Source: Bosea sp. PAMC 26642 (GTDB lineage Bacteria; Pseudomonadota; Alphaproteobacteria; Rhizobiales; Beijerinckiaceae). From it: a stretch of DNA of 64,000 nucleotides. Positions within the stretch are counted from its first letter, which is position 1. Each line of letters begins with the position of its first letter. A model generated the notes under the pieces. That model did no database searches and was not told the DNA's origin. It was given only the letters and a program-made list of their open reading frames with translations. The stretch is taken from contig NZ_CP014301.1 in NCBI RefSeq assembly GCF_001562255.1, positions 3,658,001 through 3,722,000 on the forward strand, written 5' to 3'. Position numbers and translations under genes: made by a program. This document shows positions 3,460-22,171 of this stretch, piece by piece.

Positions 3460-3465
3460 TGAAGC

Positions 3466-4642: not shown

Positions 4643-5869
4643 TCACGATGGTCGGTTAATTCGCGCATCGAGCAGACCGGCGATTATCCGCGCGGATTTG
4701 GCGGCGCCCTCGCGATCGATTGCGACGGCGGCAGGCGCAATCCGCCCGATCATGCCGTCGATGGCTGCGGCAAGCCGCCCCGGCGTCAGAGCCTCCTCGC
4801 CCGACAGGAGCATGCATTTCGCCAGCCCGGCATCCGCCATCGCCTGCGCCCTTATCGCCTGTTCGGTCTCGCCCCCCGCATCGAACGGCACGACGATCGC
4901 CGGACGGCCCGCGGCCACGAGATCGAGCACGGTGTTGTAGCCGGCCTGGCTGATCGACAGCCCGCAGGTCGAAAGCAAAGCGGGAAAATCCGGCCGCGAC
5001 CACTCGACCGAGACATGGCCGGGTGCAAAATCGCAAAGGCGATCGAACGCGTCTTGTCCAAGCCCCCTCCCCGCCAACAGCCGCCATGACCTGGCAGACC
5101 CCATCAAACGAGCGGCTTCTATACAAAGTGAGAACAAGGGCATGGCAGCACCCGACCCGCCGCCCGAAACGAGGATGTCGCCTCTTCCCCCAAAGCCCTC
5201 ATCCTGAGGAGCGGACAAAGTCCGCGTCTCTGACGCGACCTCCTCAGGATGAGGGCTTTGAGCGACAGGCGGTCGTGTGCCTTCGAGATACCCTGTGTAG
5301 TGCAGCCGCCCCCTCAGTTCGCCCGAGACCGGCCACGATGCCTCCAGCGGCAGGAATCGCTCTTCGCCATGCACGAGAACGCCGTCGAAATGCTCCACCA
5401 CGCGCCGATGCGCTTCGGCGACGCGGTCGGCACGCGGCGTCACCAGCACGTCGCGGATCGACGAGAGAACCAGCACGTTCGGATTGGCGGCTCTTGCCGC
5501 TGCGATCAGTTCCAGAAACTCGTCCGCCAGCTGCCGCCGCCCGAACGGGAAATGCTCGGTGACGACGACATCGGGGCGGAACTCACCCGCCAGCGCCGCC
5601 AGCATGGTCTCGCGCGTCACCCGCCGGCCCGGATCGATCGGCTCCCCCTGCTCGTCGAGCAGGTTGCGAAAATCCACGCCTTCGACTTTGACCGGCGGCA
5701 ACTGGACGAAGGCGAAGGGCTCCCCGGCCATATCGCGAAAAGGCATACCCCCGCTCGCCAGCGTCACCTCGAACCCAGCGGCCGAGAGCGCCCGCGCCAG
5801 ATGCATCGCCCGCACCAAATGGCCGCTGCCGAGCAGATGCGTGACCGCGATCAGAACCCAGCGCCTCAT
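4643..5869 (-). CDS. MurG/GT28-like glycosyltransferase carrying a repeat-encoded insert
   Basis: This is a GT-B fold glycosyltransferase of 408 residues. The N-terminal nucleotide-fold half has the glycine-rich [15 protein letters not shown] loop (about 14-28); the C-terminal donor half has ILVSGGGSG (about 232-240) and [23 protein letters not shown]. The acceptor is unknown. A second gene of this family is at 22308-23588, which shares the GHL/GHI loop and the (H/R)YTGYL linker. Residues 204-226 ([20 protein letters not shown], then EGF) are encoded by a 70-bp palindromic repeat lying in the linker between the two halves. The start overlaps the stop of the upstream glycosyltransferase by 4 bp, so it is the last gene of the operon. 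Confidence 0.85.
5191..5260. repeat. 70-bp palindromic repeat inside a coding sequence
   Basis: The 20-bp arms at 5191-5210 and 5241-5260 are perfect inverted copies. The 30-bp centre holds two smaller hairpins (gcgga/tccgc and cgcgtc/gacgcg). It belongs to the type of small palindromic element seen in gaps of alphaproteobacterial genomes, but here it lies in frame in the glycosyltransferase gene and is read through without a stop codon. Confidence 0.85.
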
Positions 5870-7122
5870 CGCCCAACGCCACCGGAGGCTGATTCGGAGA
5901 GACGCTGATGGAGTCGGTCGAAACCGGCCTCGGCGGAGAAATTCCGCGTCAGCCGCTCATGAGCCGCGGTACCCAGCGCGAGCCGGCGATCGGGAGAGGC
6001 AGCAAGCGCCGCCAAAGCCCGCGCCAGTGCGGCGACGTCTCCCGGCGCGACCAGCAGGCCCTCCACACCGTCGCGCACGAATTCGGGGATGCCGGCGAAA
6101 TCGGTCGCGACGATCGGCAGGGCCTGGCTCGCCGCCTCCATCACCACATTGGGCAGGCCGTCGCGGTCGCCGTCGCCCGCCTGCTTCGAGGGCAGCACGA
6201 AGAGATCCGCCTCGCGCAGCGCCGCGATCACATCGGCCTGAGGCTTCGGTCCCGCCCAGAGGATGCGCGACGCCAGGCCGAGTGCCTTGGCCTGTGTCTT
6301 CAGCGTCTTCAGCTTCTCGCCGCCACCGATATGGACCAGCCGCCAGTGCAGCCCGGCCGGCAGCGCAGCGAGCGCGCCGAGAAGATCGTCGAATCCCTTC
6401 TTCTCGACGGCGCGGCCGATGGTGACGAAGCGCACCGGATCTACTGAATCCGAGCCGTCGCGCGGCGGCCGCGACGGCGGCACCGGAAAGCGGCCGAGAT
6501 CGAGCCCGTGATAGACCAGCTCGACCTTCTCGCCCGCATCGGCCAGCCGCGACAGCTCGCGATGCCCGTCCTGCGTACAGGTCACGCCCCAGCTGCTAGC
6601 GGCAATCTTCTCACGCTTCTCCCAGTCAGGCGTCGTCCAGATATCCTTGGCATGGGCCGAGAACGACCAGCTCAGGCCGCGCAGCAACGCCGCATAGCGG
6701 ATCACCGAGGCCGGCGTGTGCAGGTAATGCACATGCAGATGCGTGATCTCGGCCGGCAGCTCGCACGCCATCACGCAGGCCTGGCCGAAACGGCGCAAAC
6801 GGTTGCGCGTCGGGTCGCGGGCAAGGTCGCGCAGGAAAACCGGCAGCAACCGCACGAAACCCGGCCGCAGCAGCGCCTGCAGAACGCCGCGCAACACCCG
6901 GCCGGGCTCCTCATGCAGATATTCCGGCAGATAGTTCACCGGCGCCGTGATCTGCCTGTGCATCAGATGGCGGTCGACATCGGTCGGCCGGCGCAGCGAC
7001 CAGATCGCGAAAAGCAGGCCGCGTTGCTGCAGGCCGAGCAATTCCTGCGCGATGAAAGTCTCCGACAGGCGCGGATAGCCCTTCATCGCGATCGCGACGG
7101 TCGGCTCAGGGCTGACGCTCAT
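5866..7122 (-). CDS. GT4-type glycosyltransferase
   Basis: This 418-residue protein has the layout of a group 1 (GT4) retaining glycosyltransferase. The N-terminal half has PRLSETFIAQELLGL and HVHYLHTPASVIRYAALLRG, followed by FSAHAKDIW. The C-terminal donor domain has FVTIGRAVEKKGFDDLLGAL and the nucleotide-sugar EX7E-type region DGLPNVVMEAASQALPIVAT. It probably adds a sugar to a glycan made by this locus. The ATG at 7122 overlaps the methyltransferase stop by 4 bp and its own stop overlaps the next glycosyltransferase by 4 bp, showing translational coupling. Longer upstream readings lie in the methyltransferase region and are not family-like. Confidence 0.9.
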   Translation of the reverse strand: MSVSPEPTVAIAMKGYPRLSETFIAQELLGLQQRGLLFAIWSLRRPTDVDRHLMHRQITAPVNYLPEYLHEEPGRVLRGVLQALLRPGFVRLLPVFLRDLARDPTRNRLRRFGQACVMACELPAEITHLHVHYLHTPASVIRYAALLRGLSWSFSAHAKDIWTTPDWEKREKIAASSWGVTCTQDGHRELSRLADAGEKVELVYHGLDLGRFPVPPSRPPRDGSDSVDPVRFVTIGRAVEKKGFDDLLGALAALPAGLHWRLVHIGGGEKLKTLKTQAKALGLASRILWAGPKPQADVIAALREADLFVLPSKQAGDGDRDGLPNVVMEAASQALPIVATDFAGIPEFVRDGVEGLLVAPGDVAALARALAALAASPDRRLALGTAAHERLTRNFSAEAGFDRLHQRLSESASGGVGR

Positions 7123-7781
7123 CGCCGCCCGATCAGCATGAAGCGGGTATAGTTCTTCGTCGGCAGCGCGCCGGCGAACCAGGTTTCGCTCAGCCGCGCC
7201 TGGGCTTGAAAGGCCTCCAGCGACGGCACGCAGCTGCGATGGTCCGGCTCGCGGACATAATCGTTCGACTGGAGCAGGACCGGCAGGCCTGGCGGCAGGC
7301 TCGCGAGCCAGCCCGGTACGTCGTCGAGATGTTCGCAGCTCGTATTGATGACGAGGCCGGGCGCCGGCTGCTGCTCCGCGAAATCCAGCGCCATCATGTC
7401 GCCCGTGACGGCGCGAAAGCGTCCCGAGGCGACATGGCGGTGGTTCAGCATCTCGGCGACGGGAGCACAGCCGGGATCGATGTCGAGGCTGACGACCTCG
7501 GCGATCGAGAGCCTGCTGTCGGCCAGCAGCAGCGCGCCGAGCACGCCATACCAAGCACCCAGGACCCAGACCGGCCCCTGCGGCCGCGGCAGCACGTCAG
7601 CCAGCGCCTCGACCAGCCACTGCTTCGAGGCGATCTGCTTGTGGTTGACCGCAATCGAGAGATCGGGCGGCGCGCCCTTGCCGTACAGTCGCGCGATATC
7701 GGCGGCGACCGGATCGCGGGTCAGCGCCGCGACCCCGCGCAGGATGTCGAAAAAGGCCTCGAAAGGCTGTTCTTGTGTCAT
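7119..7781 (-). CDS. Class I SAM-dependent methyltransferase-like protein
   Basis: The 220-residue protein has a Rossmann-type core: VWVLGAWYGVLGALLL (motif I equivalent), VVSLDIDPGC (acidic residue for the SAM ribose), FRAVTGDMMAL, and LVINTSCEHLDD. Family members methylate small molecules or glycans; the substrate is unknown. It lies 73 bp after the cyclase gene and overlaps the GT4 gene by 4 bp. That position suggests methylation of the glycan or nucleotide sugar handled by the two downstream glycosyltransferases, which is inference from context. Confidence 0.8.
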   Translation of the reverse strand: MTQEQPFEAFFDILRGVAALTRDPVAADIARLYGKGAPPDLSIAVNHKQIASKQWLVEALADVLPRPQGPVWVLGAWYGVLGALLLADSRLSIAEVVSLDIDPGCAPVAEMLNHRHVASGRFRAVTGDMMALDFAEQQPAPGLVINTSCEHLDDVPGWLASLPPGLPVLLQSNDYVREPDHRSCVPSLEAFQAQARLSETWFAGALPTKNYTRFMLIGRR

Positions 7782-7854
7782 CTTATGTCATGGAATGCGG
7801 AGAAGGCGGCGGACCATAGGGCAAGCCGGCCGGCAAAAGCCAGTGCGGCACCGC

Positions 7855-9732
7855 TCAGGCCTTGGGATCATCCCGCTTCTTGCGGGGTTTCGCCGCCCGC
7901 GCAACAACAACTGGTGGATCGACGGGCGCCGGCTCGCCAGCCTCCTCGACCAGAACGGCCTCCAGCGCGGCTGGGGCCTCGGCGGCAGGGATCGTCACCG
8001 TCATGGCCGGCTCGTCGGCGACATCCAGCTCGTCGTCTTTCTTGGCCAGTTCGGGCGCGCTGGCAAAGCCATATGCGGTCAGCGGCTTCTCTCGCCCCTT
8101 GATGATCACCTTCAAGGGCGTCGTGCCGCGATAGCTGCGTCCCGTCGTGCGGATGGTTTCTTCGGACACGACGACATCGGCCAACACGCGCCGCGTCGCC
8201 GATTCGAGCTGGCTTGCGACCATCACGGTCTCGCCGACCGTGATTTCGCGCCGGCCCAGGCTGTCGCTCTCGATCGCGCCGATGATCGCCTGCCCGGTAT
8301 GAACGCCGATGCCGATGCGTAGCGGCAGCGGCAGCGCCGCACCGAATTCGCGATTGAGCGCTTCGACCGCGCGCACGATGTCGCCGGTCGCGCTGATCGC
8401 CGCCTGGGCGGTGCGGGCGGGGCTGCCCTCCAGGCCGAACACGGCCATGAAACCGTCGCCGTAGAAGGAATCGATCCGGCCGCCATGTGCGGCGATCGCC
8501 TGCGCCATCTCGTCGAAGAACCGGTTCAGCAACCCCAGCAGCTCCTGCGGCAACTGCCGCTCGGACAGTGCCGAGAAGGCCCGCAGGTCGGCGACGACGA
8601 CGGTCAGGCTGCGCTTGCCTACATTGGCATCGGGCGCGATCTCACGCGTCGATCCGGCCGTCAGCCGCGAGGCCAGCAGGATCTGGACCTGCAGATCGTC
8701 GCGCGGCCGGATCTGGCAAGCCAGCCTGACCCGGTCGGGCGCCGAAATCCGGCGCAGCAGCTTGGCTTCGTTGGGGGCGGGCGGCGGCAGCTTGTCGCTG
8801 CCGTCCAGCACCAGCACGCGGCAGGTGGCGCAGCGCGCGCGGCCGCCACACAAGGCGGCATGGGGAATGCCGAAGCGCCGGAACATCTCCAGCACGGTCA
8901 GGCCCGGCGTCAGCTTGCGCACGCCGTGGCCGACGAAGCGCACCGTGATATGCCGCGTCGTCCGGACCCGGATCTCACGGATCGCGACGAAGCCGACGAA
9001 GCCGGCGACGATGCCGTAGAACCCCGTCTTCGCCCAGATTACGTTCTGGTTGAACATCGCGACCGCAGAATCGGTATAGGTTTCGGGCGGCATCACCATG
9101 AGGGCAGCCTCGCGGCCGGCCACGGCAAAGCCGATCAGCGCCAGCACGGGGATCAGGATCGCGGCAAGCAGGAACGGGTCGCGCCAGCGCGCATAGCCGT
9201 CCCGGGAGCGCAACGAGAAATGCAGCCCGATGATCCCGTGCGTCCAGACCAGCAACAGCAGCAGGCTCTGCGCCGCGGCGAGATTCGGCCAGAGCCGGCG
9301 CAGCACGGCTGGATAGCTCTCGTCGAGCTCAAACAGGGACCCCATCACACGCGTGCCGACCACATGGTCGACGAGCAGGATCGGAATCGCTAGACCGAGC
9401 GCGATCTGCACCATCTCGCGCGCCGGCATCCGGAATGTCCGCCGCTGGGCGACCCGCAGCATGGCGAACAGCGGATGCACGACCATCGCTCCGTAGAGCG
9501 CCACGGTTCCGAGCCATGAGTGCCAAAGCCAGTAACGCCATTGCTGGACGGCCGCCATCGCCTCGACACCGGCGATGCCGACGGCATGATTGACGAAATG
9601 CGTGGTCGCGAAGACCAGCAGGACCATGCCCGACGCAAAGCGGATATCGCGGCTCCATGAGGAGACCTGGTTCATACCCGCGCCGAAGCCCGATCCGGAT
9701 CGATTGACTCCGGCAGTCCCCGGCAGGCTCAT
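7855..9732 (-). CDS. CyaC-like membrane class III adenylate/guanylate cyclase with 2Fe-2S domain
   Basis: A 625-residue three-part protein. Residues about 30-250 form six membrane helices with several buried histidines (H45, H49, H71, H86, H123, H165, H171), like the diheme b anchors of quinone oxidoreductases. Next is a plant-type ferredoxin domain with C295, C301, C304 and C339. The C-terminal class III cyclase domain has metal-binding aspartates in VVVADLRAFS (D382) and FYGDGFMAVFG (D426). This architecture matches Sinorhizobium meliloti CyaC, a quinone-responsive redox cyclase. The tail after about residue 560 is acidic, then Ala/Pro/Lys-rich. It lies 16 bp after the cyclic-nucleotide-fold gene. 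An internal start at residue 20 is possible. Confidence 0.9.
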   Translation of the reverse strand: MSLPGTAGVNRSGSGFGAGMNQVSSWSRDIRFASGMVLLVFATTHFVNHAVGIAGVEAMAAVQQWRYWLWHSWLGTVALYGAMVVHPLFAMLRVAQRRTFRMPAREMVQIALGLAIPILLVDHVVGTRVMGSLFELDESYPAVLRRLWPNLAAAQSLLLLLVWTHGIIGLHFSLRSRDGYARWRDPFLLAAILIPVLALIGFAVAGREAALMVMPPETYTDSAVAMFNQNVIWAKTGFYGIVAGFVGFVAIREIRVRTTRHITVRFVGHGVRKLTPGLTVLEMFRRFGIPHAALCGGRARCATCRVLVLDGSDKLPPPAPNEAKLLRRISAPDRVRLACQIRPRDDLQVQILLASRLTAGSTREIAPDANVGKRSLTVVVADLRAFSALSERQLPQELLGLLNRFFDEMAQAIAAHGGRIDSFYGDGFMAVFGLEGSPARTAQAAISATGDIVRAVEALNREFGAALPLPLRIGIGVHTGQAIIGAIESDSLGRREITVGETVMVASQLESATRRVLADVVVSEETIRTTGRSYRGTTPLKVIIKGREKPLTAYGFASAPELAKKDDELDVADEPAMTVTIPAAEAPAALEAVLVEEAGEPAPVDPPVVVARAAKPRKKRDDPKA

Positions 9733-9748
9733 TCGGCCACCTGCATCA

Positions 9749-10198
9749 TCAATGGACGTCCTCGTTGTGCAGCACGAAATCCGCCAGACGGTAGAGCCGC
9801 GCCGCCAGATCGCGCGAGAGTGCGAGGCTGAAGTCGGGGATGGTTTCGAGAAGCTCGAAGAACAGATCCTTCGGCAGCCGCAGGGTCGTCACGTCGGTCT
9901 TGGCGGTGACCTCCCCGACATAGGGCTGGCCGCACAGGATCGGCACGTCTCCGATGATGCTGCCCGTGGCGAGGCGGAAGCGCTTGCTTCGTCCGTCTGG
10001 AGCTTCGTGCGAAAGCTCGACCTCGCCCTGCAGGACGACATACACCCCGTCGGGCCGCTCCCCCTCCGCGATGATCATCGTGCCGGCGTCGAAATGGAGC
10101 TTCTCTCCCATCAGGGCGACGAGCTTGAGCCGCGGGCCCGGCAGGGAACGAAACAGCGGAAACTGCTTCAGGCAGCCGATATCCGTTTCGAGCGTCAT
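9749..10198 (-). CDS. Single-domain cyclic-nucleotide-binding-fold protein
   Basis: The 149-residue protein is one CRP-type cNMP-binding beta-roll (FPLFRSLPGPRLKLVALMGE, MIIAEGERPDGVYVVLQGEV) with a short helical tail and no DNA-binding domain. In the phosphate-binding cassette (IIGDVPILCGQPYVGEVTAK, about 81-100) the usual Glu is Asp84 and the usual Arg is replaced, with Tyr at about residue 93. Canonical cAMP binding is therefore doubtful. It overlaps the ABC-like gene by 4 bp and precedes the cyclase by 16 bp, so the three genes form a tight unit. It may sense the cyclase product in a non-standard way or act as a structural partner. Confidence 0.88.
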   Translation of the reverse strand: MTLETDIGCLKQFPLFRSLPGPRLKLVALMGEKLHFDAGTMIIAEGERPDGVYVVLQGEVELSHEAPDGRSKRFRLATGSIIGDVPILCGQPYVGEVTAKTDVTTLRLPKDLFFELLETIPDFSLALSRDLAARLYRLADFVLHNEDVH

Positions 10199-12930
10199 GA
10201 TCGCGCCTCCATCCGTTCGCCGACGAAGGCGGCCGGCGACGGCTCGCCCGGCTCCTCCTCGTCCCCTTCGCTGTCGCCATCCTCGAACACGCCGGCAGAC
10301 CCGTTGAAGACGATCCGCTCGGAAATGCCTTTCGCCAGGGTAGCATCGCCGAGAAGAAGAAACAGCGTCATCCCGGCACAATGGTCCCGCAAACGCGCGA
10401 TGATCTCCTCCGGTGCGCTGGAGCTGGCGAGCAGACCCGCGATGTCGAGGACCGCGATCTGGGGCCGCTTGATCAGAGCTTGCGCCAGCGGCACCGCAAG
10501 CTTCAGTCTGACGGGGAGATAGCGTCCCCGCGTGCCGGCATCCGTGTTGAGCCCGATCCGGTAGAGTTCGCCTTCGAGGCCGGCGCGCGCCAGAGCCGCG
10601 CGCACGATCGCCGCGACCTTCCTGCGGGCATCGGCGATGCCATAACCGATGCGGCCGAACATCAGATTGTCCCGCAGGCTCGCGCCAGGCATCACCATGG
10701 CGGGATCGTAGAAGGCGACATCGTCGCGCGCATCGGCGGGCAGATGTGCCTTGAAGCTGGCCCGCGCCCGCAGGATGCGCTGCCGCAGCCGGTCGTCGAG
10801 CAGGTTCAGCCTGTGCTTGGGCTCGACATAGCCTAGCGCCAGCGCGACGAGGTCGCGCTCCGTTTCGGGATCGAGCGGGCTTCGCATGTCGTGCTTGTCG
10901 AGGACGGAAGCGAGTTCTGACAGCCGTTCGAAATCGAGATTGGCGCCGAAGGAATAGCGCTCGAACAAGACATGGCCCTGCGGCAGGCCGGCGAAGATTT
11001 CGACGACGGTTGCGACGATGCGCGACCCGACATCGACGAGCGGCTCGATAAGCGCCTCCGCCGAGAGGATGGCATGGGCATAGGACTCGAACAGCAGGGT
11101 CTCGTTGACGAAGCGCGGCCCCATCATGGCGCCGAAGATCAGGTTCTCCGAGATCGGGGCGTTGGCGTTGTAGCGCTCGGGATCGAAGGTCTCGATCAGG
11201 CCCGCGAGCTTGCTGCGGCGCAACTCCGCAGCCACGGCCTCCCGCGCCGCGACGATCTTCTCCTTGGCTTCCTGGTTCAGGGTGGCCAGGACCTTGCCGT
11301 CGAGACCGAGTTCATAGATGTCCTCCGCGCAACCCAGAACCTCGAGCACGGCCTTGATATGAACCTCGAGCGAGGCCGCGTCGGTCAGGCCCGCACCCTC
11401 GTAATCGGTCCAGTCGTCCGAAAATACGAACGGCGTATTGCCCGAACGGATCGCCTCGACGAATCGCCGATGCTCTTCGTGGGAAACCTTGTCCGTCGAT
11501 TTGGCGTTCGGCCGGCGCCGCTTCAGTGGCAGCAAGATGTTGTCGCGCAGTGTCCCGGCGATGATCTCGGCCTCGCTGCCGGCATAGCCGATCAAATGGC
11601 TCGCCTGCTCGACGGACATCCGGGAAAGATTGAACCCATCGATCATGACCCTGCCGGTATAGGCCATGGCCTGTCGCCCGAGAATGCGACCCAGCACCTC
11701 GCGGGCCCCGCCATTTGGACCGATTACGGCAACGATGCTCGGCCGTGACAAGCGCAAGGACAGTGGCGAAAGCAGGGGCTGGCCGCGATTGTCCAGCATC
11801 TGCAAGCTGTCCAGTCGGATGGCGCCGCGCTCCGGCAGCCGCCTGACCCCGTCCGCCTCGTCGAGCACCACCGATTCCTCGGTGTTGAACTGCGCGATAA
11901 CCTGCTCGTATTTGATCGTCACGTCGTTGCGCTGCTGGTCCCAATCGATCAGCTCCTTGATCGGCGGCGGCAGGTCGCGATAGGCGGCGATGACGGCGAC
12001 GAGCTGGCCGATGTCCAGCCGGCCCTGCAGCGCGAAGAAGCCGCCGATCGCGTAGAAGAAGAACGGCGTGATCTGCGCCAGCAGGTTGTTGAGGAACTTG
12101 ACCGCGAATTTGCGCTTGTAGAGCGCGTAGCGGATGTCGAAGAGCTGCCCCAGCCGCCCGGCGATGTCCGACTGGACATAGGTCGTAGCGCCATGACCCT
12201 GGATCGTCGGCCCGGCATCGACGATCTCGCCGATGCGCCCGGCAAGCGAGCGCGAGGCGATCTGGCGCTCGCGGCCGAGTCTGAGCTGCTCCTTGCGCAG
12301 GATCGGGATGATGATCGCCTGGGCCAGCACGATCAGCAATGCGATCGACCCCAGCCAGACGCTCTGCGCCATGATGAAGACCAGCGCCGTCAGCGCCTGA
12401 CTCAGCAGGAAGACCGGCTGGATGAAAGCATCGCCGACGAAGCCACCGATCGGCTCGACCTCGTCCTTGATCATGCTGGCGACCTCGGCCGGTTTGACCG
12501 CGCGAATCTCCTCCGGCCGGAAGCGCATCAGCTGGCTGAACAGATCGTAGCGCATCCGCCTGAGCATACGCTCGCCCAGAATGCCTTTGCGCAGATTGAT
12601 GACGTATTTGAAGGCGCCGTTGATCAGCACGAGCACCAGGAAATAGCCGCTCAGCCCGAACAGAAGCCCGAGCTGGTTGACCTGAAAGCCCTCGAATATC
12701 TTGAAGCTCGCTCCGCCCAGAAATCCCGGCAGTTGCAGCGTCAGGTCCATCAGCGTGACGGAGGTCTTGCCGCCCTTGAACGCGCCCCCCTGGATGGCGT
12801 CGTTGACGATCCGCTTGGGCACGTCGAAGGAGGCCCAGTTGAAGGGGATCGAGACAAGGATGATCAGCAGGACGAGGATCTGCTCGCCGCGGCTCTTCTG
12901 CCAGACATAACGGAAGAGGTTGGTCTCCAC
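10195..12930 (-). CDS. Degenerate ABC exporter-like membrane protein
   Basis: An exporter-type transmembrane domain (helices near residues 18-35, 88-105, 170-207 and 280-303) is followed by an ABC-like region. The Walker A position reads GPNGGAREV (about 404-412) where GxxGxGK(S/T) is expected. The Q-loop segment lacks Gln (GYAGSEAEIIAGTLRDNI). The signature position reads GRYLPVRLKL (about 802), and Walker B AVLDIA lacks the catalytic Glu. About 300 residues with further LRDNL-like units separate the two halves. ATP hydrolysis looks lost. I prefer the GTG at 12930 (VETNLFRYVW, AGGA 7 bp upstream; 911 residues), because the upstream 55 codons are not protein-like. It overlaps the cyclic-nucleotide-fold gene. 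Confidence 0.82.
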   Translation of the reverse strand: METNLFRYVWQKSRGEQILVLLIILVSIPFNWASFDVPKRIVNDAIQGGAFKGGKTSVTLMDLTLQLPGFLGGASFKIFEGFQVNQLGLLFGLSGYFLVLVLINGAFKYVINLRKGILGERMLRRMRYDLFSQLMRFRPEEIRAVKPAEVASMIKDEVEPIGGFVGDAFIQPVFLLSQALTALVFIMAQSVWLGSIALLIVLAQAIIIPILRKEQLRLGRERQIASRSLAGRIGEIVDAGPTIQGHGATTYVQSDIAGRLGQLFDIRYALYKRKFAVKFLNNLLAQITPFFFYAIGGFFALQGRLDIGQLVAVIAAYRDLPPPIKELIDWDQQRNDVTIKYEQVIAQFNTEESVVLDEADGVRRLPERGAIRLDSLQMLDNRGQPLLSPLSLRLSRPSIVAVIGPNGGAREVLGRILGRQAMAYTGRVMIDGFNLSRMSVEQASHLIGYAGSEAEIIAGTLRDNILLPLKRRRPNAKSTDKVSHEEHRRFVEAIRSGNTPFVFSDDWTDYEGAGLTDAASLEVHIKAVLEVLGCAEDIYELGLDGKVLATLNQEAKEKIVAAREAVAAELRRSKLAGLIETFDPERYNANAPISENLIFGAMMGPRFVNETLLFESYAHAILSAEALIEPLVDVGSRIVATVVEIFAGLPQGHVLFERYSFGANLDFERLSELASVLDKHDMRSPLDPETERDLVALALGYVEPKHRLNLLDDRLRQRILRARASFKAHLPADARDDVAFYDPAMVMPGASLRDNLMFGRIGYGIADARRKVAAIVRAALARAGLEGELYRIGLNTDAGTRGRYLPVRLKLAVPLAQALIKRPQIAVLDIAGLLASSSAPEEIIARLRDHCAGMTLFLLLGDATLAKGISERIVFNGSAGVFEDGDSEGDEEEPGEPSPAAFVGERMEARS

Positions 12931-13123
12931 CCGGCGATCCTGATGCGGCGCAAGCGACGTGGGCACCCACGCCTCGACTTGCGGCTCTTGATCTGCAGCT
13001 CTTGATCTTGCAGCACCCCTATGTGTGTCAGCTTGGCCTGCAGCGCAATGAGGGCCGGCGGCACGCTCGTTGCGTTGTCCGTCAGCGCCGCCCATGTTGC
13101 CATGACGTCACGAGGAAGGAACG

Positions 13124-14110
13124 ATGAGGTGCTCGCGTTTCGACGGGTTGAGACGGTGGTGCCAGGCGGCAATTCTGTTCGTCGCGGCCTTCGCTGCAGC
13201 GCGTGCCCAAGGTAACGAGGCGCAGAGCCGCATTCTGGCAGACGATTTCGAGGCCGGCCATTTCGCGCCGGACGGTGGCCTGTTCTACAAGGACGGCGTC
13301 GAGCAGCGTGCCGGGCGCGTCATCTTCCAGAACCGCAACGTCCGTTCCGGCAGCACCGCGCTGACCCTGTCGGTCTCGCCGTCCTGCCGGGCGGCGACAA
13401 ACGAATGCAGCGAGCGGGCCGAGGTCTGGGAAAGGCCCGAGCTGCTGGTGGGTTATGACGAGACCGTTTGGTACGGTTTCTCCCTTTTCGTGAACGACCC
13501 GGTGCCACAAGATGATGGGCGCTATGTTGTGGCGCAGTGGAAACGCGAGATCGTTCCCGGCATCGAGGGCGACTATTCGCCTTTCATGGCGCTCAGGCTT
13601 TACAAGGGCCGTCTCGGCGTCACGATCGAGACCGACCTCGTCGAGGCTTTCCCGATCGGCGGCCCAAAGCGGCCAAACGGTTGCCTGCCGGGCGAGGCGC
13701 GCGTGCTCAACCGCCCCACGGTGCGGCAGACGCGCGCATTGGTCGCGGTCGAATCGGGCATGACCGCCGACCTCTACCCAGGCTATTTCGACAGTTGCGC
13801 GCCTGGCATCATCGTGACGCGCCACGCCGACCTGCCGCCAGCCCAGAACGGCTGGATCGATTTCGTGTTTCGCTCCAGACCGGGACCTGCAGGCGACGGT
13901 CATGTCGAGATTCTGGCCGACGGCACCCACATAGCAACCGTCAAGGGCCATATCGGCCATGCCGGACCCGGGCTCGACAGGAACCAGTATTTCAAGTTCG
14001 GCCCCTACCGCGCGCCTCACTCTCAGGACTGGACCCTGACCTTCGACGATTTTCGCCGCGGGCCGCGTTGCACCGATGTCATTCGGTCGGGTCAGTGTCC
14101 GGCGGAATGA
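13124..14110 (+). CDS. Secreted polysaccharide lyase-like protein (heparin lyase I family)
   Basis: This 328-residue protein has a cleavable signal (about 1-28, ending AAARAQG) and a jelly-roll type body. The hallmarks VWYGFSLFVND, YVVAQWKRE, FMALRLYKGRLGVTI and NQYFKFGPYRAP match the polysaccharide lyase family grouped with heparin lyase I. Members cut or bind acidic polysaccharides in the periplasm or outside the cell. The ATG has a good ribosome site (gaggaagga, 4 bp upstream). It diverges from the ABC/cyclase/glycosyltransferase operon, which suggests a role in trimming or releasing the glycan made there; that link is inference. Confidence 0.78.
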   Translation: MRCSRFDGLRRWCQAAILFVAAFAAARAQGNEAQSRILADDFEAGHFAPDGGLFYKDGVEQRAGRVIFQNRNVRSGSTALTLSVSPSCRAATNECSERAEVWERPELLVGYDETVWYGFSLFVNDPVPQDDGRYVVAQWKREIVPGIEGDYSPFMALRLYKGRLGVTIETDLVEAFPIGGPKRPNGCLPGEARVLNRPTVRQTRALVAVESGMTADLYPGYFDSCAPGIIVTRHADLPPAQNGWIDFVFRSRPGPAGDGHVEILADGTHIATVKGHIGHAGPGLDRNQYFKFGPYRAPHSQDWTLTFDDFRRGPRCTDVIRSGQCPAE

Positions 14111-14205: not shown

Positions 14206-16080
14206 ATGGATATCTTGCGGCTCGGTGATGTGCGGATCGGCTTCTCGGTTCACGGGCTTGCCCGCGATGTCGTGAAGGGCGTTTCGCTGCGCGTTCCGGC
14301 CGGCAAGACCGTCGCGCTGGTCGGCGAATCCGGTTCCGGCAAATCGGTGATCTCGCAGGCCATCATGGGTCTGCTGCCGCGCAATGGTGGCGTGACCGGC
14401 GGCGAGATCCTGTTCCGCGACCCGCTCGCGCCCGATGTCGAGATCGACATTGCGGGACTGAAGTCGGAGGGCAAGGAGATCAGGGCCCTGCGCGGCGGCC
14501 GCATCGGCATGATCTTCCAGGAGCCGATGTCCTCGCTCTCGCCGGTGCACACCATCGGCAACCAGATCGAGGAGGCATTGCAGCTCCACCGGCCGACCGG
14601 TACGGCGCAGGCGCGCGAGTTGATCGAGGCGATGCTGAAACGCGTCGGCTTCAAGGATTCCCATCGCGCCTTCGGCTACTACCCTTTCGAGCTGTCGGGT
14701 GGCCTGCGCCAGCGTGCCATGCTCGCCATGGCGCTGATCTGCCAGCCGGCCCTGCTCATCGCCGACGAGCCCACGACTGCGCTCGACGTGACGATCCAGG
14801 CGCAGGTGCTCGATCTGATGCGCGATCTCCAGGCCGAGATGGGCATGGCGATCCTGCTGATCACCCATGATCTCGGCGTCGTCGCCAACATGGCCGACGA
14901 GGTCGTGGTGATCTACCATGGCGAGATCATGGAAAGCGGCCCGGTCGAGGACATCTTCCGCCGCCCGCGCCATCCCTATCTCAAGGCCCTGCTCAAGGCC
15001 TCTCCGCATTTCGACATGGCCGAGGGCGAGCGGCTCGTCGCTTTGCGCGAGGCGAGGGCCCGCCCCCCGGCGGCGCCGCGCGCGTCGATACCGGAGCAGC
15101 AGGCAGCTCCGCTCCTCAGCGTCCGCGACCTGCGCAAGACCTACACCACCGGCTCACGAAAATTCTTCGGCAAGGGCACACAGGCCACCGTGACCGCCGT
15201 CGATGGCGTCAGCTTCGACATCCGGCGCGGCGAATGCCTTGGACTGGTCGGCGAGAGCGGCTGCGGCAAGACCACGGTCAGCAAGATCATCATGCGCGCG
15301 GTAACGCCCGACGCCGGCGAAGTGGTGTTCGACGACGGTCGCAAGCACACCGATATCCTGGCCTTGGGAACGGAGGCGCTGCGCGACTTCCGGCCCAGGG
15401 TGCAGATGATCTTTCAGGACCCCGTCTCGTCGCTTTCGCCGCGCATGATGGTGATGAACATCCTGCGCGAGCCGCTGATCATCCACGGCCGCGGCGAGGG
15501 CCAGGACCAGATCGCCCGCGTGCGCAGCCTGATGGAGGATGTCGGGCTCGATCCGCGCTTCCTCAACCGCTATCCGCATTCCTTCTCGGGCGGGCAGCGC
15601 CAGCGCATCGGCATCGCGCGCGCGCTGGCGCTCGATCCCGACCTGATCATCTGCGACGAGCCGGTCTCGGCGCTCGACGTCTCGGTCCAGGCGCAGATCC
15701 TCAACCTGCTCAAGGACCTCCAGGCCGAGCGCGGCCTGACCTTCCTGTTCATCTCGCACAATCTCGCGGTGGTGAACTACATGGCCGACCGCATCGCCGT
15801 GATGGCCAATGGCCGCATCGTCGAGATCGCGCCGCGCCATGCCCTCTTCACCCGGCCATCTCACCCCTACACCAAGGCGCTGCTGAAATCGGTGCCCTTT
15901 GCCGATCTCGACCGCAAGCTCGACTTCAAGCTCGCAGCGCCCGGTGGGGCCTCCGACCATACCCACTGGGCAGCGGCCTTCAAGCCGCAGCCGGACGGTG
16001 CGGCCCTGACACATCTGCCGCTCGGCGACGGCCATTTCGTGCTGGCACGCCCCAATGCCGATGTCAGGGAGATCGCCTGA
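14206..16080 (+). CDS. Fused double ATPase of an oligopeptide-type ABC transporter (DppD-DppF like)
   Basis: The 624-residue protein holds two complete ABC ATPase domains of the dipeptide/nickel group. Domain 1 has Walker [10 protein letters not shown], signature LSGGLRQRA and Walker [13 protein letters not shown]. Domain 2 has [24 protein letters not shown] and [12 protein letters not shown]. Each ends in the family's C-terminal extension (HPYLKALL and HPYTKALL). All catalytic motifs are intact. It is the first gene of a four-gene operon, and its stop overlaps the binding-protein start (TGATG). Likely substrates are peptides or peptide-like compounds. Confidence 0.95.
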
Positions 16081-18047
16081 TGAGTACGCAGGACCGCGCC
16101 GGCATCTTGGGTTTGACGCGCCGCTCGGCGCTGGCACTGGCTGGCGGCGCTACCATTGTTGCGGGATTGCCGCGCCTGGCCTTCTCCGCATCGCAGCCCG
16201 AAAAGCTGATCGACAGCCCCTTTTTCGAGCAGTTGGTCAAGGACGGCGGCCTGCCGCCGATCGAAAAACGCGTCCCCGCCCAGCCGCGAGTGATCGAAAT
16301 CACGGGTGAGGGGCGCGAACCCGGCCGCCATGGCGGTACCATGCGTATGCTGATGGGCGACCAGCGCGACGTGCGCATGATGACGCTCTACGGCTATACT
16401 AGGCTCGTCGTCTATGACGAGGCGCTGAACGTCGTGCCCGACCTGCTGGAAAGCATCGACGTCCAGGACGACCGTATTTTCACGCTGCGTCTGCGGCCCG
16501 GCCATCGCTGGTCGGACGGTTCCGTCTTCACGACCGAGGATTTTCGCTACTGGTGGGAGGATGTCGCCAACAACAAGCGCCTCTTCCCCGGAGGCCCGCC
16601 GCAGGCTCTCCTCGCAGCCGGTGAAAAACCCGTCTTCGAGGTGTTGAGCCCGACCGAGGTTCGCTACAGCTGGCGTGCGCCGAATCCGGTCTTCCTGCCT
16701 TCGCTGGCGAGCGCGCAGCCGGCCTATATCTACATGCCGTCGCAATATCTGAAGCAGTTCCACGAAAAGCACGCCGACAAGGCCGACCTGAACCTGCGCA
16801 TCAAGATCGCCCGGGTCCGCGACTGGGGCTCGCTGCATGAGCGGCTCTCGCGCATGTACCGGCCCGAGAACCCCGACCTGCCGACGCTCGACCCCTGGCG
16901 CGGCATCACGCCCCTGCCGGCCGAACAGTTCATCTTCCAGCGCAACGCCTATTTCCACCGCATCGACACCAATGGGCGCCAGCTCCCCTATGTCGACGAG
17001 GTCTCGCTCACGGTCGGCACGAATTCGCTGGTGCCGGCCAAGGCCGCTGCCGGCGAGGCCGACCTGCAGGCGCGTTACCTCAATTTCGAGAACTACACCT
17101 TCCTGAAGGACGCCTCGAAGCGGATGAACTTCGAGGTCAAGCTCTGGAAAAGGGCGGAGGGCGCCTATTTCGCCCTGATGCCGAACCTGAACGCGATCGA
17201 CCCTGTCTGGCGCGATCTCAACCGGGATGTGCGCTACCGCCGCGCGCTCTCGGTCGCGATTAACCGCAAGGACATCAACAAGGTCATCTTCTTCGGCCTC
17301 GCCAAGGAAAGCGGCAACACGGCCTTGCCTGAAAGCCCGCTCTACGAGCCGGCACTGGCGAAGATGTGGATGCAGGACGACCGGGCGCTTGCCAACCGCC
17401 TGCTCGACGAGATCGGTCTGACGAAGCGCGACGCCGAGGGCGTGCGCCTGCTTGCCGATGGACGGCGTCTCGAATTCACCATCGAGACCGTCGGCGAACG
17501 GACCGAGGAGACCGACATCCTCGATCTGATCAAGCAGGACCTGATCGCTGTCGGCATCAAGATTTACCCGCGCTCGACGCAGCGCGACGTTTTCCGACGC
17601 CGCATTCTGGCCGGCCAGACCGTGATGTCGGCCTGGTCGGGCATGGACAACGCGCTGGTCTCGCCCGGCATGGAGCCCGATGCGCTCGCCCCGACATCCT
17701 CGGCGCAGTTCAACTGGCCGCGCTGGGGGCAGTTCCTGGAGAGTAACGGCCGCGAGGGCGAGGCACCCGACCTGCCGGAGGTGAAGGAACTGGTCCGCCT
17801 CTACAACGACTGGCGCACCAGCTCGACCAACGAGCAGCGCCGGACCATCTGGCAGACGATGCTACGCATAAACGCGGAGCAACTCTACACCATCGGCATC
17901 GTCAACGGCACGCTGCAGCCGGTCGTCGTCTCGCGCCATCTGCGCAACGTCCCCGACAAGGGCCTCTACAGCTTCGAGCCCGGCGCCTTCTTCGGCCGCT
18001 ATATGCCCGACACCTTCTGGTTCGATGGCGGACAGGCCAAGAGCTGA
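16080..18047 (+). CDS. Extracellular solute-binding protein family 5
   Basis: The 655-residue protein begins with a twin-arginine signal (LTRRSALALAGGATIVAGLP) and continues into a family 5 solute-binding fold, seen in LRLRPGHRWSDGSVFTTEDF and VRYRRALSVAINRKDINKVIF. It delivers peptides or related solutes to the permeases encoded next. The true start is the ATG at 16080, overlapping the ATPase stop by 1 bp; a longer upstream reading in this frame runs inside the ATPase gene. At 655 residues it is longer than DppA-type proteins and closer in size to the larger members of the family. Confidence 0.95.
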   Translation: MSTQDRAGILGLTRRSALALAGGATIVAGLPRLAFSASQPEKLIDSPFFEQLVKDGGLPPIEKRVPAQPRVIEITGEGREPGRHGGTMRMLMGDQRDVRMMTLYGYTRLVVYDEALNVVPDLLESIDVQDDRIFTLRLRPGHRWSDGSVFTTEDFRYWWEDVANNKRLFPGGPPQALLAAGEKPVFEVLSPTEVRYSWRAPNPVFLPSLASAQPAYIYMPSQYLKQFHEKHADKADLNLRIKIARVRDWGSLHERLSRMYRPENPDLPTLDPWRGITPLPAEQFIFQRNAYFHRIDTNGRQLPYVDEVSLTVGTNSLVPAKAAAGEADLQARYLNFENYTFLKDASKRMNFEVKLWKRAEGAYFALMPNLNAIDPVWRDLNRDVRYRRALSVAINRKDINKVIFFGLAKESGNTALPESPLYEPALAKMWMQDDRALANRLLDEIGLTKRDAEGVRLLADGRRLEFTIETVGERTEETDILDLIKQDLIAVGIKIYPRSTQRDVFRRRILAGQTVMSAWSGMDNALVSPGMEPDALAPTSSAQFNWPRWGQFLESNGREGEAPDLPEVKELVRLYNDWRTSSTNEQRRTIWQTMLRINAEQLYTIGIVNGTLQPVVVSRHLRNVPDKGLYSFEPGAFFGRYMPDTFWFDGGQAKS

Positions 18048-18065: not shown

Positions 18066-19067
18066 ATGCTGCTGCAATACATCCTCAAGCGCATCCTCGT
18101 GATGATCCCGACGCTACTGATCACCAGCGCCCTGATCTTCACCGTCATCAATCTGCCGGAGGGCGACTATTTCGAGACGCTCGCGGCCGAGATGCAGGCG
18201 CAGGGCGAAAAGGCCGATCTCAGCCGTATCGAGTTTCTGAAGAAGGAATACGGCTTCGACCGACCGCCGGTGGAGCGTTATTTCTGGTGGGTCACCGGCT
18301 TGCTCCAGGGCGACATGGGCTATTCCTTCGAATATCAGCGTCCGGTGCGCGAGATCGTCGGAGACAGGCTGATCCTGACCATGGTGGTCTCTTTCGTCAC
18401 CATCATCTTCACCTGGCTCGTCGCCTTCCCGATCGGCATCTATTCGGCCACGCACCAGTACAGCTGGGGCGATTACGGCCTGACCTTCCTCGGCCTGATC
18501 GGTCTCGCCGTGCCGCATTTCCTGCTGGCGCTGGTCTTTCTCTACACCGCCAATGTCTGGTTCGGCACCTCGATCGGCGGGCTCGTCGATCCGCAATATC
18601 TCAACCAGCCGATGAGCTGGGCCAAGCTCAAATCCGTGCTCGAACATCTCTGGATCCCGGTCATCATCATCGGCGCCGGCGGCACGGCGGGCATGATCCG
18701 TTCGGTCCGCGCCAATCTGCTCGACGAGTTGCAGAAGCAGTACTACGTCACTGCCCGCGCCAAGGGTCTGCCGCCCGGCAAGGCGCTGCGCAAATACCCG
18801 CTGCGCATGTCGCTGAACTTCTTCGTCTCCGATATCGGCGACATCCTGCCCTCGATCGTCTCCGGCGCCGAGATCGTCGCGATCGTGCTCTCGCTCCAGA
18901 CGACCGGGCCGCTGCTGATCCGCGCGCTGCAGAGCCAGGACATGTATCTCGCCGGCTCCTTCCTGATGTTCCTGTCATTCCTGACGGTGATCGGCGTGCT
19001 GATCTCCGACATCGCGCTGGCGATCCTCGACCCGCGCATCCGGCTGCAGGGAGCGGCGACCAAGTGA
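18066..19067 (+). CDS. Oligopeptide-type ABC permease, DppB-like
   Basis: A 333-residue inner-membrane permease with the N terminus of the DppB/OppB group (LLQYILKRILVMIPTLLITS), a periplasmic segment after helix 1, and the BPD_transp_1 core with the ATPase-contact loop YYVTARAKGLPPGKALRKY. It lies 18 bp after the binding-protein gene and overlaps the next permease by 4 bp (GTGA). It forms the channel with the DppC-like partner. Confidence 0.94.
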   Translation: MLLQYILKRILVMIPTLLITSALIFTVINLPEGDYFETLAAEMQAQGEKADLSRIEFLKKEYGFDRPPVERYFWWVTGLLQGDMGYSFEYQRPVREIVGDRLILTMVVSFVTIIFTWLVAFPIGIYSATHQYSWGDYGLTFLGLIGLAVPHFLLALVFLYTANVWFGTSIGGLVDPQYLNQPMSWAKLKSVLEHLWIPVIIIGAGGTAGMIRSVRANLLDELQKQYYVTARAKGLPPGKALRKYPLRMSLNFFVSDIGDILPSIVSGAEIVAIVLSLQTTGPLLIRALQSQDMYLAGSFLMFLSFLTVIGVLISDIALAILDPRIRLQGAATK

Positions 19068-20251
19068 CCACCGCCGCGACGACCACTCTGCCGCCGGACG
19101 GCGCTCCGCTGCCGCATACGGCCTCCACGGCTCCGTTCGAGCCCTATGCCGTCGATGCGATGACGCCCGAGCAGGAGCGGGTCTATCTCGCCTCGCAATG
19201 GCAGCTAATGTGGTGGAAGTTCCGCAAGCACCGGCTCGCGGTGATCTCCGGCATCGTCATCCTCGTGATCTACGCGATGGCCGCCTTCGCCGAATTCCTG
19301 GCCCCCTATCACTACACGACGCGCAACACCGACTTCATTCGCGCGCCCCGGCAGGCGGTCCACCTCTTCCACGAGGGCAGCCTCGTCGGTCCGTTCGTCT
19401 ACCCTTACGTCCAGCGCCTCAACATGGAGAACCTGAAGCGGGAATACGAAGTCGACACCACGCGGCCGCAGAAGTTGCGCTTCTTCTGCCGGGGCGATTC
19501 CTACGAGTTCTGGGGCCTGACCCCAGGGAATCTGCACCTGTTCTGCGCCCCTGAGGGAGGAACTGCCTTCCTGCTTGGGTCCGACCGGCTCGGCCGCGAC
19601 ATGCTCTCGCGCATTCTCTATGGCGGCCGCATCTCGCTCTCGATCGGCCTGCTCGGCGTCTTCGTCTCCTTCGTGCTCGGGGTCATCATCGGCGGCATTG
19701 CCGGCTATTATGGCGGCAAGGTCGATCTCGTCGTCCAGCGCCTGATCGAGATCGTGCAGTCTTTGCCCCATATCCCGCTCTGGTTGGCGCTGGCATCGAT
19801 CATGCCGCCCTCCTGGAGCCCGATTGTCGTCTATTTCGGCATCACGGTGATTCTGGGCCTGATGGACTGGACCGGGCTCGCCCGCGCGGTCCGCTCGAAG
19901 CTGCTGTCGCTGCGCGAGGAGGATTATGTCGTCGCAGCGCAACTGATGGGCGCAAAACCCGCCCGCATCATCGGCCTGCACCTGATCCCGGGCTTCATGA
20001 GCCACCTCATTGCCTCAGCCACGATCACCATCCCCAAGACGATCCTGGGCGAGACGGCGCTAAGCTTCCTGGGACTGGGCCTGCGCCCGCCGATCACCAG
20101 CTGGGGCGTGATGCTCAACGAGGCGCAGAACATCAACGTGGTGGCGCTCTATCCCTGGCTGCTCTATCCATGCGTTCCGGTGATCCTGATCATCCTGGCC
20201 TTCAACTTCCTCGGCGACGGCCTGCGCGATGCGGCCGACCCGTATCGCTGA
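19064..20251 (+). CDS. Oligopeptide-type ABC permease, DppC-like, with enlarged periplasmic loop
   Basis: A 395-residue permease of the DppC group. After the first helix (about residues 56-76) there is an unusually long non-membrane loop of about 100 residues that includes two cysteines (FFCRGDSYEF, HLFCAPEGG) before the usual LLGSDRLGRDMLSRILYGGR. The contact loop is DYVVAAQLMGAKPARII, and the C terminus ends FLGDGLRDAADPYR as expected. The start is a GTG at 19064 overlapping the DppB-like stop. Long loops of this kind occur in some family 5 systems; here it may shape docking of the large binding protein. Confidence 0.93.
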   Translation: MTTAATTTLPPDGAPLPHTASTAPFEPYAVDAMTPEQERVYLASQWQLMWWKFRKHRLAVISGIVILVIYAMAAFAEFLAPYHYTTRNTDFIRAPRQAVHLFHEGSLVGPFVYPYVQRLNMENLKREYEVDTTRPQKLRFFCRGDSYEFWGLTPGNLHLFCAPEGGTAFLLGSDRLGRDMLSRILYGGRISLSIGLLGVFVSFVLGVIIGGIAGYYGGKVDLVVQRLIEIVQSLPHIPLWLALASIMPPSWSPIVVYFGITVILGLMDWTGLARAVRSKLLSLREEDYVVAAQLMGAKPARIIGLHLIPGFMSHLIASATITIPKTILGETALSFLGLGLRPPITSWGVMLNEAQNINVVALYPWLLYPCVPVILIILAFNFLGDGLRDAADPYR

Positions 20252-21392: not shown

Positions 21393-22171
21393 CGGACGCG
21401 ATCTGGCAGCCGCTGTTTGCCGAACTCGACCGCTGGAGCGCGGCCGGCCGGACCGTCCGGCTCTGGCTGCGCGACGACGACGCCATCGCACCGAGCCCCG
21501 CTTTGACGCGGCTGGCACGCCTCAGCGAAACCTTCGACATCGCTATTCTGCTGGCCGTAATCCCGCTGCTGGCCCAACCCGCTCTGCCGCGCGAACTGCG
21601 CGCGATGCCGCGCCTTCTTCCCTGTCAGCATGGCTGCCGCCACAAGAACCACGCCCCTCCCGGCGGCAAGAAATCGGAATTCGGCCGCGACCGGCCGGAC
21701 ACCATCATTCGCGCTGACATCGCAGCAGCCCGGCAGCGGCTGGACGACCTCTTCGGCCCAGCCCGGCTGCCCGTCTTCGTGCCGCCCTGGAACCGGATCG
21801 ACCCGGCGGTCGCCGCAGCGCTGCCGGCACTGGGCTTCACCGGCCTGTCCTGCTTCCGCGATTTCACGCTCGGTGCGACTGGCGGACCCGTCCTCGCCAA
21901 CACCCATATCGACGTCATGGACTGGCAAGGCGGGCGCATCGGGCGGCAGGCACCGGAGGTGATTACGGAAATCTGCGCCACACTCGCAGCAAGACGCCAG
22001 GATAGCACCGACGACCGGCTCGGTGTCCTGCTGCATCACCGCGACCACGACGATACTGTCTGGAATTTCCTCGACGGGGTGCTGAGAGTGATCCGAGATC
22101 ACCGGGCCATAGCGCTGACCGATCCGCAAGATTTGTTTCCACCAGCCGAGACTATGGCGACTGGCTCGTAG
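21389..22171 (+). CDS. Polysaccharide deacetylase family protein
   Basis: The 260-residue protein carries the carbohydrate esterase 4-like pattern: the metal/base aspartates in LWLRDDDAIAPS, the histidine motif CQHGCRHKNHAP, FVPPWNRI, and LLHHRDHDD near the C terminus. The fold normally removes N- or O-acetyl groups from sugars with a divalent metal. No signal peptide is visible, so it would act on a cytoplasmic substrate. It is translationally coupled to the preceding glycosyltransferase, which suggests the two act on the same intermediate. Confidence 0.85.
   Translation: MTDAIWQPLFAELDRWSAAGRTVRLWLRDDDAIAPSPALTRLARLSETFDIAILLAVIPLLAQPALPRELRAMPRLLPCQHGCRHKNHAPPGGKKSEFGRDRPDTIIRADIAAARQRLDDLFGPARLPVFVPPWNRIDPAVAAALPALGFTGLSCFRDFTLGATGGPVLANTHIDVMDWQGGRIGRQAPEVITEICATLAARRQDSTDDRLGVLLHHRDHDDTVWNFLDGVLRVIRDHRAIALTDPQDLFPPAETMATGS

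Follow-up and report, generated by a model that had tools for sequence, protein, structure and literature searches.

A degenerate ABC exporter-like protein, its CNB-domain partner and a cyclase-like redox sensor in a glycan locus of Bosea and other Alphaproteobacteria

Introduction

This analysis concerns a stretch of 64,000 nucleotides (the window) from the genome of Bosea sp. PAMC 26642 and within it a leftward operon of six genes for an ATP-binding cassette (ABC) exporter-like protein with a degenerate nucleotide-binding domain (NBD), a stand-alone cyclic nucleotide-binding (CNB) domain protein, a CyaC-like redox sensor, a methyltransferase-like protein and two glycosyltransferases. The genome comprises 5.5 Mb in two contigs, and among named relatives of the ABC-like protein the nearest belong to Bosea. 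A described relative of the sensor is CyaC of Sinorhizobium meliloti (SMc01818), reported to be an active adenylate cyclase encoded beside TetR (CycR) and LysR genes (PMC10463352). Judging by a figure legend of that source, both proteins share the domain order of two haem B, 2Fe-2S and class III cyclase. The Bosea protein differs in the loss of catalytic residues and in its partners, which are a CNB protein and a degenerate (pseudo-)ABC protein. The genomic context of S. meliloti CyaC was considered as a model for the Bosea operon and rejected, as its neighbours (TetR, LysR) are different ones.

For the ABC-like and CNB proteins the closest known kind is presumably that of the NHLM and other CNB-linked ABC exporters, as suggested by NCBIfam matches to NHLM/bacteriocin exporter families that stay far under cut-off (TIGR03896 for the CNB protein, 7.3e-9; TIGR03796 for the ABC-like protein, 2.7e-21). 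In contrast to the NHLM exporters, the Bosea ABC-like protein has no peptidase-domain match in Pfam, carries a degenerate NBD and lies among glycan instead of peptide genes. CyaC sensors, exporter-tied CNB domains and pseudo-enzymes are each known as kinds; no description of a combination of CyaC-like, CNB, pseudo-ABC and glycan genes was found in a literature search with narrow term combinations that also covered related subjects such as pseudo-cyclases, in agreement with an earlier interpretation of the DNA letters without database searches (the sequence-only reading), which knew of no system with this exact make-up.

An ABC exporter is also encoded together with glycosyltransferases for an unknown polysaccharide in the S. 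meliloti msbA2 operon (SMb21188-21191; PMC3687685; PMC12239276), the available text on which mentions neither a CNB protein nor a cyclase. This operon was rejected as the S. meliloti counterpart since, following these sources, it lies at 938 kb on pSymB, whereas the ABC-like gene is found at 842-844 kb.

Linkage of the ABC-like and CNB genes with glycan genes

The six genes of the leftward operon, listed from its last to its first gene, are:

4643..5869, minus strand: GT28/MurG-like glycosyltransferase, last gene of the operon (PF04101, 3e-9; matched by tblastn in 21 of the 22 Bosea-type loci)
5866..7122, minus strand: GT4 glycosyltransferase, EpsE-like (PF00534, 6.7e-32; NF041876 EpsE under its cut-off)
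7119..7781, minus strand: methyltransferase-like protein of 220 amino acids, unnamed family (gene call in 20 of the 22 Bosea-type loci)
7855..9732, minus strand: CyaC-like redox sensor with transmembrane domain, 2Fe-2S domain and class III cyclase fold (PF00111, PF00211)
9749..10198, minus strand: stand-alone CNB-domain protein without DNA-binding part (PF00027, 4.6e-20)
10195..12930, minus strand: ABC-exporter-like protein of 911 amino acids with degenerate NBD (PF00664; ABC_tran under cut-off)

A genome collection was scanned with an alignment of the ABC-like proteins. Of the relatives, at least 505 in number, the best 80 form the main set (22 Bosea-type and 58 other loci). Our own open reading frame calls miss some genes (the CNB gene in L069, the lyase gene in L007 and L008), and counts by tblastn were made too. 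A CNB match lies at most 1 kb from the ABC-like gene in all 80 loci (tblastn). This adjacency together with a natural fusion of both proteins, described below, supports well that the ABC-like and CNB proteins would act together. Of the 58 non-Bosea loci, 49 have a member of one or more of four glycosyltransferase families nearby (gene calls); the GT4 enzyme of the window (5866..7122) has a strong tblastn match in 33 of the 58, with 52-67% identity. By gene calls, the non-Bosea loci also contain an importer ATPase (38/58), a polysaccharide lyase-like gene (11/58), a nucleotide-sugar dehydrogenase (13/58) or a CyaC-type cyclase (21/58), and gene order and strand vary among genera.

The linkage extends to samples of wider scope. 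Among 199 genomes of the order, the ABC-like gene is present in 73, a marker glycosyltransferase termed GT28f6 (encoded in the window at 22308..23588) in 66 and both in 65 (Fisher p 3e-42, a value computed over genomes that kinship makes non-independent; ten weak extra glycosyltransferase places in genomes already counted were left out). In all 54 genomes with both genes on one contig they are at most 20 kb apart. In a sample of the class, 98 of 289 genomes carry the ABC-like gene (73 of 224 genera). Of 29 class loci, the window's own excluded, 23 have the marker glycosyltransferase within the same short stretch. All 25 carriers among the 299 genomes of a phylum sample belong to this class, the share of genomes from outside the class in that sample being uncounted. 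Furthermore, 29 of 40 additional stretches, picked by choice and not randomly, contain at least one of the glycosyltransferase families, and among the eleven that lack them there are six (L114-L117, L131, L132) whose relatives are fused, incomplete or weak in their match. That the ABC-like/CNB pair would serve a glycan locus is well supported by this genomic context.

A comparison of gene order had been proposed in the sequence-only reading, and the genes were not found to be rarely adjacent elsewhere (CNB 80/80, glycosyltransferases 49/58, co-occurrence 65/66). The same reading had treated the ABC-like, CNB and CyaC-like proteins as a three-gene signalling module. Of this triad the ABC-CNB pair is constant, but a CyaC-type cyclase is near the ABC-like gene in only 43 of the 80 loci by gene calls (46 by tblastn), so that the triad is a variable form.

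The CyaC-like sensor and its cyclase domain

The CyaC-type proteins that could be scored comprise 42 non-canonical and ten canonical ones. Four histidines (45, 86, 123 and 165), putative haem ligands by analogy with S. meliloti CyaC, and the cysteines 295, 301, 304 and 339 of the 2Fe-2S domain are kept in all 42 and all ten. The residue counts omit L135:3837-5330, which matches the cyclase profile without containing a cyclase domain, and L025 is unscored as the contig ends inside its cyclase gene. In a structural model of the window protein (pLDDT 80, pTM 0.55) the cyclase part is well modelled, with Cya2, CyaC and CyaB as nearest folds.

The catalytic residues of this domain are altered. Direct alignments to PDB sequences place serine, methionine and glutamine in the window protein at the class III cyclase sites at which solved cyclases have lysine (glutamate in the guanylate cyclase Cya2), asparagine and arginine. 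Among the 42 non-canonical proteins the lysine, which specifies the base (adenine in adenylate cyclases), is never kept, the transition-state asparagine is kept in two and the transition-state arginine in six. At the lysine site Ala, Ser, Gln, Leu, Val or Asn occur, none of them having become a consensus. For comparison, 21 other class III cyclases from the 40 additional stretches have the lysine in 18 cases, the asparagine in 20 and arginine or lysine at the arginine site in all 21; two other class III cyclases are encoded elsewhere in the window's genome. The distance from the lysine to the asparagine site is 85 residues in the reference row of the alignment and 81 in S. meliloti numbering, and the residue mapping therefore rests on the alignment. 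In S. meliloti CyaC the exchanges K410A/T484A and N491A/R495A were silent in a two-hybrid host, for which the authors consider loss of activity probable (PMC10463352).

The cyclase domain of the Bosea proteins has a mean identity of 79% as compared to 26% in the tail (22 sequences), and its dN/dS ratio is 0.08-0.29 in six pairs by a crude method. Such purifying selection and conservation argue against a decaying gene.

The CNB receptor

The phosphate cassette of the window CNB protein reads Asp...Pro-Tyr-Val and not Glu...Pro-Arg-Ser/Thr-Ala, and the phosphate-binding arginine is absent from all 23 Bosea-type CNB proteins, that of the window included. Across loci, an R[ST]A cassette is found beside all ten canonical CyaC proteins and beside none of the 42 non-canonical ones; among loci that lack a full CyaC-type gene it occurs in 59 of 62, and of 26 other class loci with an identified CNB gene 24 have it. 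The 42/10 split of cyclase and cassette (Fisher p 6e-11) was considered as independent evidence for a joint change and rejected, as a tree of the ABC-like proteins, a quick tree of 61 of 120 rows, gives a single change, counted among the rows with a scored cyclase. The 52-locus table thus reflects one historical event and not 52 trials. The complete loss of the arginine is partly independent, with at least three changes inside the clade, in Bosea, in a Methylocystis metagenome-assembled genome (MAG) together with L025, and in Rhabdaerophilum together with L073, and with one outside. Since a fused paralogue in the same genome has an intact cassette, the change belongs to the circuit of the glycan locus and not to the genome as a whole.

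The ABC-like protein

The transmembrane domain of the ABC-like protein is of the exporter type (PF00664, 44.4 bits at a cut-off of 28). Best Foldseek matches of its model are P-glycoprotein, MsRv1273c/72c and Atm1-type exporters, with low whole-chain TM scores of 0.2-0.4. Alignments to ABCB proteins reveal that the NBD is interrupted by about 310 residues. In 120 members of the family the Walker A column contains lysine in seven and GK[ST] at the site in none, and the Walker B glutamate and the H-loop histidine do not rank among the six most frequent letters of their columns. A family without these ATPase motifs is, as the alignment supports well, probably no ordinary ATPase.

The insert repeats the Q-loop/helical segment, giving three copies (98, 97 and 81% probability in profile comparisons) at residues of about 438-812 of the protein encoded at 10195-12930 of the window. 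An architecture in which a degenerate NBD has three copies of the Q-loop/helical subdomain is not known to us from earlier descriptions, although no search for one was made. In the model (pLDDT 80) two strongly conserved stretches, residues about 158-172 and 319-335, are poorly modelled, which may point to the need for a partner.

The genome of the window encodes a paralogue of 1027 amino acids (L114:7788-10871, minus strand, near 3474 kb of contig C1), in which an ABC-like and a CNB part are fused. Its domains are ABC_membrane, ABC_tran and a CNB domain with intact cyclic-nucleotide cassette, and the gene adjoins one for a metallo-beta-lactamase (MBL)-fold hydrolase (L114:6941-7795).

Proposed mechanism and alternative explanations

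How could these components work together? The gene set, its conservation, the loss of motifs and the ABC-CNB fusion are read directly from the sequences. The Bosea operon would be one form of a widespread alphaproteobacterial locus for building, trimming and retaking a surface or secreted glycan, the core of which may be a membrane complex of the pseudo-ABC and CNB proteins. Across most lineages, a cyclic nucleotide is probably the signal that the CNB protein reads, in many cases supplied by a class III cyclase close by, and the complex would gate the glycan machinery. In the clade of Bosea, Labrys and Ancylobacter the partner is a CyaC-type redox sensor that has kept the residues for sensing and lost those for making cyclic nucleotides; the CNB cassette is changed as well and, in Bosea, is without its arginine. 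Under this explanation the conformation of the cyclase dimer, which is perhaps still nucleotide-binding, would shift with the redox state of the quinones, and direct contact of this dimer with the CNB and pseudo-ABC proteins would switch glycan assembly or export.

Given the missing catalytic residues and the altered phosphate cassette of the CNB protein, a messenger-free sensor is the most likely explanation. That the Bosea CyaC-like protein makes no cyclic AMP (cAMP) and the Bosea CNB protein binds none is probable from these residues. Somewhat short of an even chance is given to the step in which the sensor, its conformation set by the quinone redox state, acts by contact on a CNB/ABC-like complex gating glycan synthesis or export. 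The explanation as a whole, a redox sensor whose output part is a pseudo-cyclase and which controls glycan handling through contact with a pseudo-ABC/CNB complex, has in our estimate about equal chances of being right and wrong. More tentatively, the entire clade may have turned a messenger circuit into a messenger-free relay, in which a dead cyclase, in Bosea a non-binding CNB protein and an ATP-idle ABC protein set the surface glycan by contact. Loss of activity, signalling by contact, the sign of the control, quinone sensing in Bosea and the glycan itself are what we infer here. The proposal of the sequence-only reading that the module sets glycan synthesis according to the quinone redox state is retained with respect to the linkage of the genes and the intact histidines and cysteines of the sensor; a cyclic-nucleotide output is not supported, the Lys/Asn/Arg triplet and the CNB arginine being lost.

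Several observations weigh against this explanation. Nine of the 58 non-Bosea loci have no glycosyltransferase in their stretch, three being cut by a contig end and six not, and eight of the 73 genomes with the ABC-like gene are without the marker glycosyltransferase. The non-canonical loci form a single clade on the tree of ABC-like proteins, the first loss being one event and not 42. The pair of metal-binding aspartates is retained in 42/42 and 41/42 of the non-canonical proteins, and both are present in the window protein, so that some nucleotide chemistry is still conceivable. The column corresponding to T484 holds isoleucine in the window protein in one alignment, and another alignment puts a threonine there behind a one-residue gap in Bosea; because of this disagreement the residue was dropped from the argument. 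The CNB arginine remains in 16 of the 42, including Labrys and Ancylobacter, where the following letters are not Ser/Thr-Ala, and these lineages could therefore still bind cyclic nucleotide monophosphates. Finally, the arginine is gone in L118 and L119, which belong to one family and near which no CyaC-type gene was found, apparently by a separate loss.

In a first alternative, the quinone redox state would govern cAMP production by CyaC, and glycan synthesis would receive this signal through the CNB protein. The intact sensor residues, the intact cyclase fold of the model and the ten of 52 loci that combine a canonical, intact CyaC with an intact CNB cassette would fit such a circuit, but in the window protein Lys, Asn and Arg are replaced and the receptor arginine is missing from every one of the 23 Bosea-type proteins, which makes it quite unlikely for Bosea. 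The retained metal aspartates, purifying selection on the cyclase domain and the change of both enzyme and receptor within a single clade would also be consistent with a switch of product, in which a changed base pocket makes a different cyclic nucleotide, such as one with a pyrimidine base, and the CNB cassette was refitted to it. However, the transition-state asparagine and arginine have disappeared too in nearly all of the proteins, the lysine site has acquired no new consensus across the clade, and the Bosea CNB protein is without the arginine that holds the cyclic phosphate; we regard such a switch as unlikely.

Two further alternatives concern the ABC-like protein and the linkage itself. 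The protein might still transport a glycan or a lipid-linked precursor with the help of a partner NBD or another force, while the CNB protein and the sensor only gate it. The exporter transmembrane domain is, by eye, the most conserved part of the alignment, and glycan genes are all around; yet, apart from the importer ATPase, no partner NBD recurs in the stretches examined and the protein's own ATPase motifs are degenerate, so that transport of this kind has a low probability. Mere proximity, in which the signalling module and the glycan genes are neighbours on the chromosome and have no function in common, could appeal to the 37 of 80 loci in which no CyaC-type gene was called. It is very improbable in view of the co-occurrence in 65 of 66 genomes, of the distance of at most 20 kb in all 54 one-contig genomes across many families and differing gene orders, and of the 4-bp overlaps between genes of the Bosea operon.

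If the messenger-free relay is true, bacteria would be able to link the handling of exopolysaccharide to the quinone pool with no messenger that diffuses. The system also permits a comparison of enzyme, receptor and effector of one circuit between forms that look active and forms that look inactive. As the class sample illustrates, the ABC-like gene is widespread, with most of the locus also present on S. meliloti pSymB, and the degenerate NBD of its product with the tripled Q-loop/helical segment is an architecture deserving a structure.

Other genes of the Bosea locus

To the right of the operon the window contains the following features:

13016..13050, minus strand: predicted promoter-like block ahead of the ABC-like gene (conserved among 18 aligned Bosea-type upstream regions)
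13124..14110, plus strand: polysaccharide lyase-like gene, divergent, optional member (PF14099, 1.9e-24)
14206..16080, plus strand: Opp-type importer double-ATPase subunit (PF00005 in two stretches, PF08352; called in 21/22 Bosea-type and 38/58 other loci)
16080..18047, plus strand: family 5 solute-binding protein (PF00496; 22/22 Bosea-type and 38/58 other loci)
18066..19067, plus strand: importer permease B (PF00528)
19064..20251, plus strand: importer permease C (PF00528, PF12911)
20283..21392, plus strand: second GT4 glycosyltransferase (PF13692, 1.5e-24; 22/22 Bosea-type and 27/58 other loci)
21389..22171, plus strand: polysaccharide-deacetylase-like protein (grouped via GT28 proteins bearing this domain in other genera)
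22308..23588, plus strand: GT28/PseG-like glycosyltransferase, the marker GT28f6 (PF04101)

The Bosea locus consequently has two back-to-back halves, the six-gene leftward operon and, at 14206-23588 on the plus strand, the importer, GT4, deacetylase-like and GT28-like genes. All six leftward genes noticed in the sequence-only reading exist and are conserved in Bosea-type loci; the operon is real, but it is only half of the locus, the plus-strand half having been missed. Counted downstream from the ABC-like gene the intergenic gaps are -4, 16, 73, -4 and -4 bp, which corrects a single value (72) of those reported previously. Gene calls in the 22 Bosea-type loci, one of which (L010) is cut by its contig end, place the CNB and cyclase genes near the ABC-like gene in 22, the GT4 gene in 21 and the methyltransferase-like gene in 20; with such counts the six-gene order is non-random.

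Pfam agrees with the identities proposed for five of the six leftward genes (GT28 C-terminal, GT1/GT4, Guanylate_cyc plus Fer2, cNMP_binding and ABC_membrane), the NBD of the ABC-like protein staying below threshold. The sixth, the methyltransferase-like protein (7119..7781), has no match in Pfam, NCBIfam or PDB sequences, and its label thus goes by appearance alone. A relative of this family is encoded in the S. meliloti pSymB locus as well. The diverging lyase-like gene, likewise noticed before and there described as coding for a secreted protein, is clearly above the PF14099 cut-off (87.2 against 29.9 bits), and a PDB sequence search with its product gave no useful match. It is optional: tblastn matches it in ten of the 22 Bosea-type loci and in 11 of the 58 others. 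The deacetylase-like protein (21389..22171) itself has no Pfam or NCBIfam match; its domain, encoded by a separate gene in Bosea, is fused to a GT28-like enzyme in L047:4240-6165 and, by length and profile, in other loci. In Bosea-type loci the operon is followed by the cobaltochelatase genes CobS and CobT (378-4668 of the window). A CobS match is present in 21 of 22 Bosea-type loci and in none of the 58 others (tblastn), and therefore CobS and CobT look like neighbours and not like members.

Related loci in other genomes

On pSymB of S. meliloti 1021 the stretch 826.7-845 kb shares with Bosea the lyase, importer, GT28f6, GT4, GT28, methyltransferase-like, ABC-like and CNB genes and includes the sugar dehydrogenase found in other loci; a second GT4 gene and a deacetylase were not seen within these limits. 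Its CNB cassette is canonical (PRTAT), and the cyclase-like match is weak (24-27 bits), the one frame scanned having no Pfam match. The ABC-like gene of strain 1021 (L154, 841.7-844.4 kb) consists of two overlapping frames, whereas that of M270 aligns in one piece, reflecting either a strain difference or a sequencing error. No study of this locus was found in the literature. By gene numbering, unconfirmed otherwise, the ABC-like gene may be SMb20813, called the S. meliloti msbA homologue in one report (PMC10945364), and the KPS genes smb20804 and smb20805, which are reported to affect sensitivity to a plant peptide (PMC5539429), may by the same unconfirmed numbering be neighbours of the pSymB copy.

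Locus L072, from a MAG named Asaia bogorensis (Acetobacteraceae), belongs to the Bosea-like clade, which points to a misbinned contig or a transfer. Plasmid p_3 of Phyllobacterium sp. 628 (L186, 246-279 kb) carries much the same gene set, and the annotation around its CNB gene includes two cyclases, a DUF3095 protein, a metallophosphoesterase and an MBL-fold hydrolase. These hydrolases could possibly be dedicated phosphodiesterases, in which case the plasmid would encode a whole circuit to make, read and, presumably, erase the messenger. In the same locus an annotated polysaccharide deacetylase gene adjoins a GT4 gene.

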